Source: Eremomyces bilateralis CBS 781.70
Taxonomy: Eukaryota > Ascomycota > Dothideomycetes > Eremomycetales > Eremomycetaceae
Reading direction: 5' to 3'
NCBI RefSeq assembly: GCF_010015585.1
Contig: NW_022985074.1
Coordinates: 496,026-560,025 of the forward strand
DNA: 64,000 bases
Position numbers and translations under genes: made by a program
Part shown: positions 32,337-61,061 of the stretch, piece by piece
How positions within the stretch are numbered: the first letter of the stretch is position 1
Layout: the number at the start of each line of letters is the position of its first letter
The notes under the pieces: model-generated
The model's input: only the letters and a program-made list of their open reading frames with translations
The model's database searches: none
What the model was told of the DNA's origin: nothing

Positions 32337-35300
32337 ATGACCGTCATGGCTTTGGGTGATGTGTCGACGGCTGGGCAGGGCCAGATACGGACTCGCAGCT
32401 ATCAGATGGAGATGTTCGAACGAAGTATGAAGGGGAATGTCATAGTTGCAGTGAGTATTGTTGATGGTTAGTCGGGACACCGCTTACCGATTCAGATGGA
32501 TACGGGGAGCGGCAAGACGCACATGTTCGGCTTCATTAGCTTTAAACCAGCTTTCGATTAACATCCTAACATAAATAGAGCATTATTACGAATCATGGCA
32601 GAGCTGGAACGGTGTGGTCCAGATAAAGTAAGTTGATATGCTCTGGTCATTGGTTCCTGGCTGATCGGAAACATCAGCTACTTTGGTTCCTTGCACCAGG
32701 AGTCGCCCTCTGCAATCAGCAGTTTAAAACCATCTCCAGCCAACTCCCGTCCGTAAGGATGAGAGTTCTTGTTGGCTCAGATAACGTTGACCGATGGAGT
32801 GAACAACGTATTTGGGACGCTGCGTTGCAAGGGGTACGAGTCGTCTTCTCGACTCATGCCGTCCTCGCAGATGCTTTGAGCCATGGATTTATAAAGATGG
32901 CACAGTTGGCTCTGCTCGTATTCGATGAAGGTACATTCAAGTTCGTATAGAGAGCTGACATCATGCTCACGATCCATAGCCCATCATTGCACGAAGCAGC
33001 ATCCAGCAAACAAGATCATGAGAGACTTCTACCATCCAGCGAAGGCTTCGAAGGCCTCCAATTCTGTTCCACATATCCTTGGACTGTCTGCAAGCCCCGT
33101 GGCGAAATCAAATATCAACGACCTTGGAACAATAGAGGCGAATCTCGATGCTGTTAGTGTTACTCCTCGCATCAACCGTCAAGAGTTGCTCAAGCATGTC
33201 CATCAGCCAAAGGCCATAAAGCTGGAATACGAACATGCTTTACGGAAACTTTGTGCCTTACAGAGCCCTGCGTATTGCGCCCTCATGAAGTTGTGTGATG
33301 TATTTTCCCCTCTTGATGAGCTCGGAAAGCAGCTAGAAACATTCTCTCGGAAAGCAACGCATATATATGATGAGCTCGGGCCGTGGGGAGCTGAATACTT
33401 CATTCTAGAGTCAGTCGCAGTATTGAAGAAAGGAGGCGAGATGGATAGTTTTGGATACGCTTTCAGTTCTGGAGGTCAGGACCTCAGAGCGCATCTTCTG
33501 GCCAAGCTCGCTCCGATCGTCCACTCTAGCAAACCAGAAGACGCGACGAAGATGGATGACCTGCCCATCTCGCCAAAGGTTGAGCTTCTCATCTCGTTCC
33601 TTGCCAAGCAAGATCCCGAAGTGTGTGCCGGTCTGATCTTCGTGGAGCAGCGCGCTGTAGTTTACGTCTTGTCCCGACTCTTATCTATTCATCCACAGAC
33701 AAGATCACGCTTCCGATGCGCTACGTTCGTTGGCGAATCTAGCTGGGGCAAGCGTAAACTCAAGTTGAATGAACTCGTTGATATCAAGGCGCAAAAGGAG
33801 ACGCTATTAGAGTTTCGGACAGGAGTGAAAAATTTGGTCGTCGCTACGAAAGCGATGGAGGAAGGCATTGATATCAGTGCATGTAACTTGGTGGTTGGCT
33901 TTGATCCCCCCAAAACCCTGAAATCATTCATTCAGTGTCGAGGAAGAGCAAGGCATGAGGAGTCAAGCTACATAATCATGCTTGCTAAGGGCGATTCACG
34001 AGCTAAAGCGGATAAATGGGAGGCTCTCGAGGAAGAGCTCATTCGAATCTACCAGAATGAAGCCAGAATGCAGCAAGAGCTCGCTGCTATCGAGGAGATT
34101 GATGAGAAAATAGATTACAAGCTCAAAGCCCCGTCAACTGGGTGAGTTTTCAACCGTATTCAACTGCTAAAAGCTAATTCCTCGGCAGTGCGATGCTCAC
34201 AGCCAATTCAATGATTGCGCATGTCCATCATTTCTGCAACCTACTTCCTAAAGAACCATATGTGGACTACAAGCCCGAGTTCACCTTCCATGAGGACACC
34301 TCGCACCTCATCACAGCTACTCTAACGCTTCCCAACGGCGTCAACGCCGCAGTGCGTACAACAGTGGGGAAGAAAGCATGGCGTACCGAGCGTGCGGCGA
34401 TGAAAGATGCTGCGTTCCACGCATATGAAAAGCTCTACAAAGCAGATCTCTTGAACGAAAATCTTCTGCCTCTCCCGCACGGGTGGCATCTAACTCAACA
34501 TGATCAGGAAGAGCAAGATCGTCCTGCAGTGTTGGACGTTTCTCCACAGCTGGATCCGTGGATTGACCTCGCAGAGGCGTGGCAATCCCCCGATTTCCAT
34601 GAGGCGCGAATCTCGATCCTGGACCAGACCTCGAACCAGGAGTTGCGAATGGTATTGATAACTCCATCTGCGATTCCAGAGATACCAAGATTTGACCTAT
34701 ACTGGAATCCCCAATCTACACTTACTGCTGGCATCGCTAGTAAGGGTCGGATAGGCCGACTAGAGAAAGATCCAAGGCAACTACTTTCATTCAGGGAGGC
34801 TACGAATGCTTGTCATGCTGCTGCTAGGCGAAGCGACGTATCACACGAATACTCGGACTACATCGCGCTCTTTGCTCCAGATATGACGCAGACACAGCTC
34901 AGCACGTGGCTACCTCTATGCCGGGGGTCTAGAAACGCAATTGACGTTTATAGAACCGGCGCCGGTAACCCTGACGGGATTGTTACAGTTGCTGCGAAAG
35001 GATATGCGAGGTATATCCCCATCCGATGGATTGTTTCCTCTGCCAGTGCCTCTGAAAGTGGACCATCGGAAGAATCGATCGAGATTGATTGCCGGAGGCT
35101 CCCCAAACGCCAAAACTTTTTGTTGCCCGAGCATAACTGGAAAAGCCAGGCTATAAATCCAGGCCTGCAGGAGCGGAAAATCCGGATGTTCTCTGCTCAC
35201 GAATGCACCATGGACACAATTCCCTTCGTTTACGCCCAATTCGGACTTTTCATACCTGCAATTCTGCAACATATTGAAGTGTACTCTGTGGCAGAGCGCG

Positions 35301-36721
35301 TTCGCACAACCGTGCTAAAATCAATTCCTTTCCAGGGCCTAGAGCACATTGTTGCTGCAATCACCGCCCCTTCGAAGCGATGGACCTCGAACTATCAGCG
35401 CCTTGAATTTATTGGAGATACGGTGCTCAAATACACTGTCTCTATCCAGCTATACACGGATCATCCTACGTGGCCAGAAGGATATCTCTCGTCGAAACGA
35501 GACTCGCTAGTCTCAAATTCGAGACTTCTGAAGGCAGCGAAGGCCAAAGGATTGGAGAGATTCATTATGACCGAGCAGTTCAAAGGCGGGAAGTTCTCTC
35601 CACTCCGTGTTTCGGAAGCACTCGATCCTATGAAGGCAAAGGAGGGCAGGACAGTGTCCACGAAAGTCATCGCGGACGTTGTAGAGGCACTTATTGGCGC
35701 TGCATATGTCGAATTTCAGCATGATGAGGCACGAAAATGTATCAACCTTTTCTTACCGGAAATCCGCGCGAAGGCCCCGATCCTGAAAAGACCAGGCGTT
35801 CCAGTTTCACCCGGATCTCATAGCCATCTCAACGAAATTGAAGCTCTCATCGGCTATTCATTCCTCGACAGGTCAATTTTACTTGAAGCTGTTACTCATC
35901 CAGCGGGCAGCACGGATGCTCACACCGAGTCGTATCAGCGGCTGGAGTACCTTGGTGACGCGGTATTGGATATGGTCGTAGTCTCTATCCTCGAAACGCA
36001 CGAACCAGATCTTTCGGAATCCGAAATGACACTCTGCAAGCACGCACTTGTGAATGGCGACTTCTTAGGGTTTCTTTGTTTAGAAACTACCTTGGAACGT
36101 GACAAGATCGATATTATCGAGCACACGCGTGGCAACTTCATGGAGAATCGGAGCACAGATCGAATTCAGCTTTGCATGTACATGCGACATCGTTCAAAAC
36201 AAGTCTGGGAGGCACAGGCTGCCTGCTCTGACAGGCACCTCCATCTTCGAAAGGAGATCAAGCGAGCTTTGGAGTCGGGTTCTTCATTTCCGTGGGTGCT
36301 GCTGGAAAGGTTAAGGCCAGACAAGTTCTTCTCCGATATCATTGAGAGCATCATTGGTGCCATATTTGTCGACTCCTCTGGAGACCTTGGCCTTGTTCGG
36401 CAGTTCGTCGAGAAGATCGGGCTGATGAATTACACGAACCGACTCATGAAGGAGAAAGTGGATGTTCTTCATCCCAAAACCGCTCTACATCTTATGCGGC
36501 CAAACGCAACGATTGACTTGGAAGTCAAACCGGACGAAGGGGAGACGTTGTTTTGCGAAGTCAGTGTTGGTGGCGCGAGGGTGTGTACGGTTAGGAATTG
36601 TTTGAATAAAGATGAAGCAAAAGCTGCTGGGGCTGAGCAAGCCTGCAAAATCCTGGCATCAGAGTCTATGGAAGGGATTCAGATGGCGAATGATGATGAT
36701 GCCATCGCGGGGGCAGAATGA
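32337..36721 (+). CDS. dcl2: Dicer-like protein 2, RNA-interference ribonuclease
   Basis: Cuts double-stranded RNA into small interfering RNAs. In fungi Dcl2 is the main Dicer against viruses and transposons. Exons: 32337-32450, 32496-32524, 32579-32627, 32678-32930, 32980-34141 and 34189-36721 give 1379 aa, the usual length. Domains in order: DExD/H helicase with [10 protein letters not shown] (motif I, about 38), [25 protein letters not shown] and LGLSASP; helicase C with [16 protein letters not shown]; Dicer dimerisation domain (about 660-760); RNase IIIa ([28 protein letters not shown]); RNase IIIb ([30 protein letters not shown]). The acidic residues of both RNase III sites are present, so the gene looks functional. 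No PAZ domain is evident, as is usual for fungal Dcl2. Exon 2 has only 29 bases. Confidence 0.96.
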
Positions 36722-44009: not shown

Positions 44010-44093
44010 ATGGTGTCCTCTCTTTCACAATGGACATCCTCTCGACATCTTCGTCACTACATCTTCTATCCAACACCATCTCTAGTCCTATGA
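44010..44093 (+). promoter_or_regulatory. Upstream ORF overlapping the hacA start codon
   Basis: An ATG at 44010 opens a 27-codon frame that ends TGA at 44091-44093, so it overlaps the hacA ATG at 44030 in another frame. Its stop overlaps a second in-frame hacA ATG as ATGA (44090-44093), a layout that permits termination-reinitiation. Translational control through an upstream ORF is known for hacA of aspergilli. Its use here is inference and depends on where transcription starts. Confidence 0.55.
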
Positions 44094-45445
44094 CCACCGT
44101 CAAAATGGAAGATCTCGAGCAGCTGAATATGTCTACCGCATCCTCCCCCTCACCATCGCCATCCTCATGCACGTCTGACGTCAAGCCTTCCGTAAAGAAG
44201 AGGAAGTCATGGGGTCAACAACTCCCCGAGCCTAAGACCAACCTCCCACCGCGGAAACGAGCGAAGACAGAGGATGAGAAGGAACAGCGACGCATCGAGC
44301 GAGTCAAGAGAAATCGGCTCGCTGCTCACAACTCCCGGGAACGCAAGCGACTCGAGGTCGAGAAATTAGACACCGAGAAACAGAGACTCGAGAACGCTGT
44401 GGCCACCCTGCGTGAGCAGATGCGACATAAAGATGCCCTTCTCCAAGCCTATCAATCAATGCATGGGCCACTCGTCGGCGATGACTTCAAGTTCGCTCCA
44501 TCCCTCACTGTCTCGGACATGGACGCGGCGTCGCCCAGTATCAACTCCCAGCACACGTCCATGTCCGTCCCATCATTATCCTCCGCCGCTCCATCGATCA
44601 TCGACTCCCCCTCCACCCGGACATTCTCGCAACCCGCCACCCCGGCGACTCCCGCGCTCCCCATCGAGGCTGACTTGACACAACATTCTGCAGCAATGTT
44701 GTGCCCCGACCTGCAGTGTCAGTCAGCCTCGACGGAGGGCGCCGAGGAGCCGTCGACTCGGCCAACACCTTCGGCACCCTCACTTTCGCCGACGCACTGC
44801 GTTCAAATCATTTTGACGGTGCTGACGACCCTTCAATCCCTCTCGACATGGACTTCGATCTCTTCACTCATCCCGACACTTCCCACGACCTCTCCCTCAA
44901 AGCGACCATGGGCTCCTTCTTCACGGACGCGAGCGCCTCCCTTTTCGACAACATCCATCCCGCTTCTTCAAATCCTCTCCTTCCTCAGCCCCACGACCCC
45001 GACCATGTCTCCGCCTCCCTTTCTCCTGACGGCACTCCTGCTGCTCCGCTCCTCTCGCTCCCTGATGACCCTACTCTCGATTCCTTCTTCGACTTCACCG
45101 CTGACTCTGGCGCGCCGAACCCTGCGGCTCTCGATGCTGCGGGCTCGCTCTGCGACGGGTCCAGCGCGAACGCTGTCGAGACAGGAATCTGAGAGGGGGC
45201 TCACCAGGGCCGACGGAGTGGTGTTGGCGGGGGTGGCGCGGTGGTGGGAGCGATCACGGCACGGGGAGTCGGCGCAGTCAATTTTAAATCATGAACGGAG
45301 AACGAATCTAGGATGGGACAATCGGCGTTTAGAGCAACATGTTAAGGAGCAGGTGAGGAGGTTCGATGGACGATCGAGGAGGAGACGACGGGAGCAATTG
45401 AAGTTAAAGGGCGTCCGGGGAGTTTGGGTATCAAAATCCGAGTGA
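44030..45445 (+). CDS. hacA: bZIP transcription factor HacA/Hac1, unfolded-protein-response activator
   Basis: Activates chaperone and secretion genes under ER stress. The unspliced frame is 44030-45445 (471 aa). Removing 44694-44716 joins 44030-44693 to 44717-45192 in another frame and gives 379 aa. Residues 55-80 hold VKKRKSWGQQLPEPKTNLPPRKRAKTEDEKEQRR, a hallmark of Hac1/HacA. The basic region is NRLAAHNSRERKR (NxxAAxxSR, about 95-107), followed by a leucine-zipper-like helix. Ser/Pro-rich sequence leads to DLTQHSA, where the Ire1-type site lies. The spliced C-terminus (VSVSLDGG..., DMDFDLFTH, SFFDFTADSG) is acidic and aromatic, like an activation domain; the unspliced tail is basic and low-complexity. 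The 44030 start is the first ATG in this frame; 44090 is an alternative. Confidence 0.93.
   Translation: MDILSTSSSLHLLSNTISSPMTTVKMEDLEQLNMSTASSPSPSPSSCTSDVKPSVKKRKSWGQQLPEPKTNLPPRKRAKTEDEKEQRRIERVKRNRLAAHNSRERKRLEVEKLDTEKQRLENAVATLREQMRHKDALLQAYQSMHGPLVGDDFKFAPSLTVSDMDAASPSINSQHTSMSVPSLSSAAPSIIDSPSTRTFSQPATPATPALPIEADLTQHSAAMLCPDLQCQSASTEGAEEPSTRPTPSAPSLSPTHCVQIILTVLTTLQSLSTWTSISSLIPTLPTTSPSKRPWAPSSRTRAPPFSTTSIPLLQILSFLSPTTPTMSPPPFLLTALLLLRSSRSLMTLLSIPSSTSPLTLARRTLRLSMLRARSATGPARTLSRQESERGLTRADGVVLAGVARWWERSRHGESAQSILNHERRTNLGWDNRRLEQHVKEQVRRFDGRSRRRRREQLKLKGVRGVWVSKSE
44681..44716 (+). promoter_or_regulatory. hacA: Ire1 cleavage sites and 23-base unconventional intron of hacA mRNA
   Basis: At 44681-44701, CAACATT - CTGCAGC - AATGTTG is a perfect 7-bp stem with a 7-base loop. 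Cutting after CTGCAG (44693) fits the known Ire1 rule, cleavage after G in a 7-base CNGCNGN loop. A second 7-base loop, CTGCAGT, at 44711-44717 sits on GAC/GTC, only 3 bp as read. The 23 bases 44694-44716 would be removed. That is 2 modulo 3, which switches translation into the frame ending at 45192. There are no GT-AG borders, so this is not a spliceosomal intron. Confidence 0.88.
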
Positions 45446-57328: not shown

Positions 57329-59288
57329 GATCGATTGCAATTTTGTAACATGTTTGAGCAGTTATGCAGGCGCGGGAATGTGAGCTTGTATTATTAGAGT
57401 ACTTGCCGTGAGGTGTAAATATGGAAATGTTTGGATCATGTAACAAGCTGGCCTCAACCTGAAGACACCAATACCCAGGCCACACACAGCAGAGTACAAT
57501 TAGATTAGATGGTCTCACCACCAATGGACAATGGCCACTCTCATGACGCGGCGTGCTGGAAGGGAGCTCGTGTCAAAAGTACTCCGTTGCTAAAGCCGAC
57601 TGCGACTGAAACGATCATCTGACAGGTCATGATTGCCTCAGGTACTGAGGCTCCAAAGAGCTTACGACAATGGAGAGCTGAAACCGGTTCGGATGGACAA
57701 CGCCTCCAACGGACAATGAAATGGCTGTGACACTGTAGTAGAAAGTAGCGGACGTCATCCAGAGGTACCTCAACGACAACGGTTGGTGGAAGCAGGGTGA
57801 TGCACGAAAAGCATCGAGACTTGGAGAAGTCGACGAACCGCATCCGGGATATCAAATCGCTCAGAAACCTCCTTTAGGAATTTCCAGATTACCCGAAAAG
57901 GAGAGCGTTCGCATATTACTCCGGATTCATCTCCAGTAATTCCTCTCCAGTACGGGCCAGAATAAGGAGCGGAGCGCTTGCTGTGACGGAAGGGTACGAA
58001 TAGGCGCCGGCTTCATGAACGCCAAACCTCAAACTTGCCTCGGAGTTGGTTCGTCGGACAGAGGAGCCACGATCAATCAATCCGAGCTGGATGTCCGTCA
58101 AGCGGTTACGGGTATGGAATTCAGCGCTTCGGAGTGGAGTCGAGCTTCGGAGTGAGAAACTGAGGATAGGAAGTCCGAGGAGTGAGCATCGTCACGACGG
58201 TCGTTGAGGGTGGGAATCCAGAAGACCTCGAGTTTAAGAACGCGAAAACAACGCGTCTTCCCGTGAACTGCTCAGTGACTCATTCTGCAGGTTCTTGCAT
58301 CCATTGTGAAACATTTGTTTGCTGTCCATCAACCAATCTACGCTGCAAACAAAGTTGCCCAATGAGTCAGAGAGAAGGGCTGCAGATCCGGATCATTACT
58401 CGGCCCGGCCATGGCCCGGTCCACCAATCAGCACGCGTGTGCGCATGGACGATGTTGGGTCTATCAATCGACCATCCGCGTCGCGTCTACAAGCGCCCAG
58501 CCTCAACCTCGACCTTGGTATTGTCCCACCGACGATACCTGACGTCCGCTCCACCTCGAAATTGCCGCCCCGACCTATTGCATATCGCAAACGATGCCCA
58601 AAAATAAGTCATCGTCCACCAAGAGCGGCAAGCAGCGACGGTTTCATCTCAGTAACCGCCCGCTCCAGCGTGTCCCAGCCCAGAACCTCTGCGGTGCTGT
58701 CTATGTCTATCGCCATGGCCCAGCGATGCGTCGCACAGCGGGATATAGCCGCCTCTCGAAACATCCGGAAACATTGAACCCCAAATATAGAAGCGCGACG
58801 TGAACGGTCCAGCGTTGTCTGAGGCTCCACGCGCGACTGTCTGGCAGTTGATCTGGGTTTCATCGTCGTGGAACGGCGAACTTGATACTGCTTTGGGGGG
58901 GAACTCCTCGGGTGAGGTTCACGCTTGATGCCCGTTGCTGCAGGTTCGCTCCACCAATATGGATGGATACGCGTGGATCTGGTTTCAATTTCCCGGAGTT
59001 CATATTAAGCGTGTTCGCCCTTCGCATATGTGCTTCGCCTCTCGATTTTGTTCCTCAGTCTCTGTCTCTATTTCTTGCATCTTGCATATTTTCCTACACG
59101 CGTGTCTATTGCATTTGTGGCGCGGGTCTCCCCTTTCCTTGTCATATCCAACCATACCCAAGGAGCAGGCCTCCGTCCTCTAGACTAATCCTTAACCACC
59201 AAAAGAACGCGCTCAACTAAACCAGTGTGTAAGTCCAATCCATTAATGTCAGTTGGTTCAAGTCTCATTATGTCAGGCGGGCACCACC
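57329..59288. other. Gene-free stretch, about 2 kb, with a 5'-UTR intron at its end
   Basis: ETF-QO 3' flank, then many short frames with no domains. Just before the next gene, GTAAGTCC near 59230 and TTATGTCAG ending at 59276 look like donor and acceptor of a leader intron of the 590-aa protein gene. Confidence 0.45.
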
Positions 59289-61061
59289 ATGGGCATCTAT
59301 AATATCAACACCCATGTCCGCCAGAACACCCCACCGTATGAAGGTCTCCAGTATGGCAGTGCCGTACCCTATCAGACGTGTGGGAATGTCTATCCGGACT
59401 CTTCCCCCGAATCCGTCCTTTCGCGTCATACCCATATGACCACTCCCGAGCGGTCCCCAATGCGCGTTGTCGGCCAGGCCATTCTCCCACGCATTCGCTG
59501 TCAGGATCAGGTCACGGAACCTTCGGCGCCCGGCCCAATCCGCCACAGAAAATCCGCAAGCGCAAGTTCTCACCCTTCGCTGTATCCGTACACACTTCGG
59601 CGACCGTCATCGATCCACCGTGGCACCAGCCCCCCCAACAGTGACATTGTCTCGCCTTCCTCCGCTGTGTCAACCGCTTCTCTCTTTGAGTCTGCGTTCA
59701 GCTCCGCCCTAAACTCTCCCATCTCTATCACCGGCAATCATCGACGTCGGTCGTCCCTGGCTGTCATGTCACGTGAGCCATCTCAGCAATCCTTCGCCGG
59801 TCGTCCAGGCCACTCTCGCGCTGGTTCAGCGTCAAGTGTGGACGAGGCCGTTCTGAGCCGTTACTCCTATCCGTATCGGACCGAACCCCAATATGTCACT
59901 GCGGCGACATACCCCCCCAACTCGGCCACTCATCTGCCGAGCACAAGCTTTTCCAGCCAGTACAATGCAGATATATTAGCTCCGTTCACCGATACCGCCG
60001 CGGCTGGCACGGAGGCTCCGCAGGAGTCCAATTGCCTCACCAACTACCTCACGTCTACCAATCCCACTCCCATGCTGATCTCCCGCGCGACGCGGAACGA
60101 CATTGGAGCGAAGCACTTCTGGTTCGACGTGCGCAATCTCCGGCGTTGGGATGGCTTCTGTGTCCAGACCATCATGGACCTCCCCACCATCCCCGGCCTT
60201 CTCGCCATCTCACTGAATGCCGACGAATACTTCCCTCTCCCTCCCCGCACCAACCCCACGCCAGAAACCGAGTCGGCGCTCGTGGATATCTGGAAGAACA
60301 CGCTCGCCTTCAAAGTCAACGCGGGCCTGAAGCTCTGCAACAACAATCTCCGCATGCATGCCGTCTCCAACCCCACATCCGGCGCCGTCAATCGCCCGGA
60401 TTTCGTCTCCAATGCCCCGGGTGACATCGAAAAGACTTTCCGTGGCCACACCCGCGGCCGCGTCATTGGAATCGCCAAGAGCTACGAGGAGTGGAATACC
60501 AGCCTGCGCACCGGCAACGCCAACGACCAATGCAAATATCTCAAAGGCCTTGCCCATCTCCACTACCTCCTGCGCGAGAACGGCTGCCGATACGGCTTCA
60601 TCATCACCGAGATCGAGCTCATCTGCGTCCGTGCCGGCGGCCCCGCGAACAACATCCCCACCGACTTATCTGCGTCCACCAACAACGCCGCGGCCACCGG
60701 CGCTGAGGATCCGAACAACTGGCCGATCTACGGCTGGCTCGAGCTCGCCGCGCCGATCAAGCTCGCCACGTCCCACGAGCCGACGGACGTTACCGACGCC
60801 GGTGCGCACCCCCCGATGACGGCCGCGTTGGCACTGTGGTTCCTCAACATGCTCGCCGCGGACCTCGTGCTGCCCGGCCAGCCGTCCTGGCGCATGGAGG
60901 TCGGGGGGCCGGCGGCGTGCTCGCGGAATCGGTGCGAGCCGCGCGACGAGTGGATGCCGAAGGTGTTCACGCAGTTTGAGAAGCGGGCGGCGAAGAAGGC
61001 GAGAAAGTGGGTGTTTCCTGATGAGCCGTTTCAGAGAGGCGAGGCGAAGCGGGAGAAGTAG
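59289..61061 (+). CDS. Uncharacterised conserved fungal protein, 590 aa
   Basis: One coding exon from the ATG at 59289. Residues 1 to about 235 are Ser/Pro/Thr-rich and look disordered. From about 245 on a folded domain follows: NYLTSTNPTPMLISRATRNDIGAKHFWFDVRNLRRWDGF, then CKYLKGLAHLHYLLRENGCRYGFIITEIELICVRAG, GWLELAAPIKL and a Cys-containing segment GPAACSRNRCEPRDEWMP before a basic end. The order of a helix, a strand ending FIITEIELICVR and a WLELAAPIKL strand recalls nuclease-like or kinase-associated fungal domains, but I see no certain catalytic triad. I do not know a function. There is no signal peptide or membrane helix; nuclear or cytosolic is likely. Confidence 0.8.
   Translation: MGIYNINTHVRQNTPPYEGLQYGSAVPYQTCGNVYPDSSPESVLSRHTHMTTPERSPMRVVGQAILPRIRCQDQVTEPSAPGPIRHRKSASASSHPSLYPYTLRRPSSIHRGTSPPNSDIVSPSSAVSTASLFESAFSSALNSPISITGNHRRRSSLAVMSREPSQQSFAGRPGHSRAGSASSVDEAVLSRYSYPYRTEPQYVTAATYPPNSATHLPSTSFSSQYNADILAPFTDTAAAGTEAPQESNCLTNYLTSTNPTPMLISRATRNDIGAKHFWFDVRNLRRWDGFCVQTIMDLPTIPGLLAISLNADEYFPLPPRTNPTPETESALVDIWKNTLAFKVNAGLKLCNNNLRMHAVSNPTSGAVNRPDFVSNAPGDIEKTFRGHTRGRVIGIAKSYEEWNTSLRTGNANDQCKYLKGLAHLHYLLRENGCRYGFIITEIELICVRAGGPANNIPTDLSASTNNAAATGAEDPNNWPIYGWLELAAPIKLATSHEPTDVTDAGAHPPMTAALALWFLNMLAADLVLPGQPSWRMEVGGPAACSRNRCEPRDEWMPKVFTQFEKRAAKKARKWVFPDEPFQRGEAKREK

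Follow-up and report, generated by a model that had tools for sequence, protein, structure and literature searches.

A predicted 23-nucleotide Ire1-type intron of the Hac1/Xbp1 family in the hacA gene of Eremomyces bilateralis

A gene at positions 44030 to 45445 of the window analysed here (64,000 nucleotides of Eremomyces bilateralis CBS 781.70; all hacA features lie on the + strand) is almost certainly fungal hacA/HAC1, including the conserved cytoplasmic intron that operates in the unfolded protein response. Within the Hac1/Xbp1 family this intron is ordinary and well formed, and such introns are the standard switch in other fungi and in animals. Direct observation covers the sequence, the RNA-family match, the reading frames and the fact that the genome has genes for IRE1 and a tRNA ligase. 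Because the splice sites are predicted along with the unspliced and the spliced protein, the latter can be annotated in Eremomyces bilateralis, and the stress response could be assayed with one primer pair.

Translation from the hacA ATG at 44030 gave a reading frame that is open without any conventional intron and encodes 471 amino acids in its unspliced (u) form, with the stop at 45445. A Pfam scan of the unspliced frame, covering the first 229 residues only, placed a bZIP domain at about residues 83-131 (44276-44422), upstream of the intron, with PF07716 (residues 84-131) above its cut-off (24.5 bits; cut-off 22.3) and PF00170 under its own (23.8 bits; cut-off 27.6). Positions 44664-44732 matched the Hac1/Xbp1 non-canonical intron structure (RF04247) over model positions 1-72 of 72, scoring 53 bits where the gathering score is 41, with an E-value of 4.6e-9 for the 2301 bases searched. 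When the whole assembly (26.6 Mb) was scanned with RF04247, 73 of 1310 first-look candidates being scored, 44664-44732 was the sole match listed up to an E-value of 10 (E-value 1.3e-8); none of 14 control genomes yielded a match above the gathering score, and seven had matches at the E-value limit of 10. Compared with 200 dinucleotide shuffles, 44664-44732 had a folding z-score of -6.72, and the z-score for 44660-44745 was -4.05. We named the gene hacA, as a putative assignment, because the RF04247 match and the bZIP domain combine. The sequence-only reading had proposed a hacA gene with an Ire1-type, frame-shifting intron of 23 bases, and this putative assignment fits the RNA-family match, the bZIP domain and the reading frames alike. 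We consider it barely conceivable that the structure is unspliced and owes its inverted repeat to chance in a GC-rich coding sequence: in a scan along the reading frame with 69-base windows every 3 bases, the window at 45098 did fold at -33.0 kcal/mol, equal to the window at 44663 (-33.0 kcal/mol; 44664-44732 itself folds at -34.8 kcal/mol), but the genome-wide RF04247 match is the single one listed, at the E-value given above, and lies in a gene that encodes a bZIP protein and in which excision changes the frame as expected.

Within the Hac1/Xbp1-type structure, the RF04247 alignment defined two hairpins carrying the predicted cleavage sites. Hairpin 1 (44679-44703, 5' cleavage site) has the 7-base loop CTGCAGC (44688-44694) and hairpin 2 (44708-44720, 3' cleavage site) the 7-base loop CTGCAGT (44711-44717), which places the two CTGCAG loops exactly 23 bases apart, as had been claimed. 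The stem of hairpin 1, CACAACATT/AATGTTGTG (44679-44687 with 44695-44703), is perfect, in agreement with the earlier description, and comprises 9 bp rather than the 7 bp given there; the stem of hairpin 2 was correctly read as 3 bp (GAC/GTC, 44708-44710 with 44718-44720). Both hairpins are enclosed by a perfect, uninterrupted closing stem of 12 bp (44664-44675 with 44721-44732) that was absent from the sequence-only reading, and whose pair probabilities were 0.96-1.0 for the outer 11 pairs and 0.49 for the innermost one; in a fold of 44600-44800 it runs outward to 44636/44762 with bulges and internal loops. Hairpin 2 has its last 3' base at 44720, immediately followed by the first base of the closing stem's 3' strand at 44721, and the 3-bp stem can therefore stack on the 12-bp helix. 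The question raised earlier, how Ire1 finds a site on so short a second stem, probably has a structural answer: the stem abuts the closing stem, an arrangement of three stems shared with RF04247, and we infer that stem 2 would actually stack on it. Both loops fit the splice-site motif CNG|CNGN described in PMC8071499 and PMC6037481 (CTGCAGC at 44688-44694, CTGCAGT at 44711-44717). Seven placements of the intron, with starts from 44688 to 44694, yield an identical product because CTGCAG flanks it on both sides; the excision of 44694-44716 suggested earlier is one of them, whereas the CNG|CNGN rule places the predicted 23-nt intron at 44691-44713.

Loss of 23 bases shifts translation, as anticipated, into a new frame ending at 45192, which adds 158 residues and not the 160 codons previously counted (second exon of the spliced, i, frame at 44714-45192). 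The spliced protein has 379 residues and the unspliced one 471, the first 221 being common to both. No Pfam family was found in the spliced C-terminus (44701-45189) at an E-value of 0.01. Searches for homologues gave 11 pattern matches, none of them confirmed, for a 110-residue stretch around the bZIP domain in the viral_contigs scan, and 38 pattern matches, again with none confirmed, for the first 229 residues in the genome_contigs scan.

No stop interrupts the unspliced frame along the full length of the spliced C-terminus, and it continues for a further 84 codons, counting its own stop (44714-45445). Across the 157 spliced-frame codons tested, the unspliced frame had no stop and the third frame six. 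When the synonymous codons of the gene were permuted 20,000 times, 86% of the outcomes kept an unspliced frame without stops, as did 59% of 20,000 codon-order shuffles; such a frame was rare (0.23% of 20,000) only under uniform synonymous-codon choice. We therefore rejected selection keeping the unspliced frame open, since codon usage suffices for the overlapping part. Upstream, a 27-codon frame (44010-44093) begins with an ATG at 44010 and runs, out of register with hacA, across the start of that gene at 44030. In N. crassa and other fungi the hac-1 leader is reported to become shorter under stress (PMC4488935), and by analogy this upstream frame could be a translational brake on hacA.

Elsewhere in the window, two neighbouring open frames at 32925-36721 contain a helicase C-terminal domain, a Dicer dimerisation domain and two RNase III stretches, and probably represent a Dicer gene, judging from these domains. 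Another open frame, at 59253-61061, encodes 602 residues and had no Pfam match at an E-value of 1e-4.

Domain matches show that the genome has genes for both IRE1 and a tRNA ligase of the fungal type. The Ire1 RNase family (PF06479, Ribonuc_2-5A) had one match in the assembly, in a kinase-RNase frame of 426 residues that matches solved IRE1 chains along its length (best match PDB chain 2rio IRE1, E-value 1.4e-90). The 846 residues preceding it matched PDB chain 2be1 IRE1 (E-value 1.8e-13) and no Pfam family at an E-value of 0.01; we take both chains to be from yeast and 2be1 to be the luminal domain. The two parts of IRE1 occupy neighbouring open frames (L005 1819-1831), a pattern that points to a short conventional intron near where the kinase domain starts, over which the frames would be spliced together. 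For the fungal tRNA ligase, the phosphodiesterase domain had one matching place in the assembly. We scanned a 663-residue part of this protein, the frame of which extends past the fetched locus, and found complete phosphodiesterase and kinase domains and an RNA ligase domain covering profile positions 98-227 of 227.

Reasoning from relatives, we infer cleavage, ligation and stress dependence at hacA as follows. Under ER stress, Ire1 would cut both 7-base loops, at CUG|CAGC after 44690 and at CUG|CAGU after 44713. The long closing stem would hold the cleaved exons together while they rezip, and a Trl1-type tRNA ligase would join them. The loss of 23 nt would then switch the frame, so that the bZIP factor gains the 158-residue C-terminus (379 aa) in place of the unspliced tail (471 aa).

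Folding 44660-44745 without constraint gave as minimum-energy form a zipped hairpin (-38.9 kcal/mol). It lies 5.2 kcal/mol below the twin hairpin (-33.7 kcal/mol), which is the best fold when the two loops are kept unpaired. In the zipped fold 44689-44693 pairs with 44711-44715 (CUGCAG with CUGCAG, five pairs), burying both cut sites inside this helix, and five exon pairs (44677-44681 with 44716-44720) lengthen the closing stem; pair probabilities in the ensemble were at most 0.008 for hairpin 1 and 0.0 for hairpin 2. A heuristic estimate of the barrier from the twin to the zipped form was 6.6 kcal/mol, and over 44600-44800 the gap between the two remained at 5.2 to 5.6 kcal/mol at 15, 25, 30 and 37 C. 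These energies would suit a bistable RNA, in which the unspliced mRNA is mostly zipped with its cut sites hidden and is opened by translation, a helicase or Ire1 itself, and which, if true, would mean extra control on splicing. We nevertheless judge it unlikely. The energy program leaves out coaxial stacking in a three-way junction, and the stacking of hairpin 2 on the closing stem thus omitted from the energies would favour the twin form. Among growing 5' fragments folded every 5 bases, those ending between 44704 and 44719 contained hairpin 1, whereas the one ending at 44724 was the first to show the zipped form, so hairpin 1 can form earlier. Moreover, the cleaved exons form the same exon pairs as the zipped fold (cofold -35.1), and these pairs may be selected only for ligation. 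A two-state switch, in which mutual pairing of the palindromic CUGCAG sites hides both places where Ire1 cuts, so that splicing needs active unfolding as well as Ire1 activation, is in our estimation very unlikely.

We thus retain the ordinary Hac1/Xbp1-type intron, for which the modelled zipped state would be mainly a product state, with an inhibitory role before cleavage possible. The letters of the RF04247 consensus folded into a closing stem and two hairpins, with the second loop shortened by extra pairs, which as a single consensus is no real control for the competing folds. The self-pairing CUGCAG sites raise the small question of how cut sites stay accessible in the short introns of fungi. 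The exon pairing of the zipped fold resembles the rearrangement described for XBP1 in PMC6037481; there, a zipper-like structure keeps the exons in place until they are ligated, and an analogue has been identified in yeast HAC1. For N. crassa, the authors of PMC4488935 state that the twin hairpin is the lowest-energy form of hac-1 RNA, as computed with another program; the species may differ in this preference, or the programs may. The same paper mentions an element in the 3' UTR of yeast HAC1 that is important for its splicing.

Intron length had been presented as unusual in the sequence-only reading, which compared it with 20-nt introns only. Such introns are indeed given for Aspergillus nidulans, A. 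fumigatus, Trichoderma reesei and Verticillium dahliae in PMC9552611 and PMC8071499, and they would suit a lineage-specific, unusually long Ire1 intron requiring a changed Ire1 or changed recognition. We find this hardly plausible, and rejected the unusual length, as 23-nt introns are already in print: Neurospora crassa hac-1 loses 23 nt by cDNA comparison (PMC4488935), and Myceliophthora thermophila Mthac-1 loses 23 nt in sequenced RT-PCR products (PMC9552611, PMC12310822). The V. dahliae authors also quote 20-26 nt for filamentous ascomycetes (PMC8071499), the range for yeasts being 19 to 848 nt (PMC6222058). In addition, the structure here fits RF04247 end to end, and the kinase-RNase part of IRE1 aligns along its length with the solved chains, as described above. 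The Eremomyces bilateralis hacA intron leaves knowledge of Ire1 introns unchanged.

Among known systems, N. crassa hac-1 and M. thermophila Mthac-1 are like hacA here in having a 23-nt intron, a frame change and a longer unspliced than spliced protein; unspliced and spliced lengths are 571/448 aa in M. thermophila (PMC12310822), 526/417 aa in V. dahliae (PMC8071499) and 471/379 aa here. N. crassa hac-1 has CTGCTG on the 5' side (PMC4488935), whereas CTGCAG flanks the intron on both sides here, as it does in other filamentous fungi (PMC4488935), and Mthac-1 has an extra conventional intron of 58 nt (PMC12310822), which hacA here does not need. Aspergillus hacA, T. reesei hac1 and V. dahliae HAC1 share the CNG|CNGN sites (PMC8071499), with introns of 20 nt as against 23 nt here. 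The RF04247 family, matched at full length, likewise combines a closing stem with two hairpins bearing 7-base loops; its consensus has 6 bp in stem 1, 5 bp in stem 2 and an interrupted closing stem of 12 pairs, whereas the corresponding stems of Eremomyces bilateralis hacA have 9 bp, 3 bp and an uninterrupted 12 bp.
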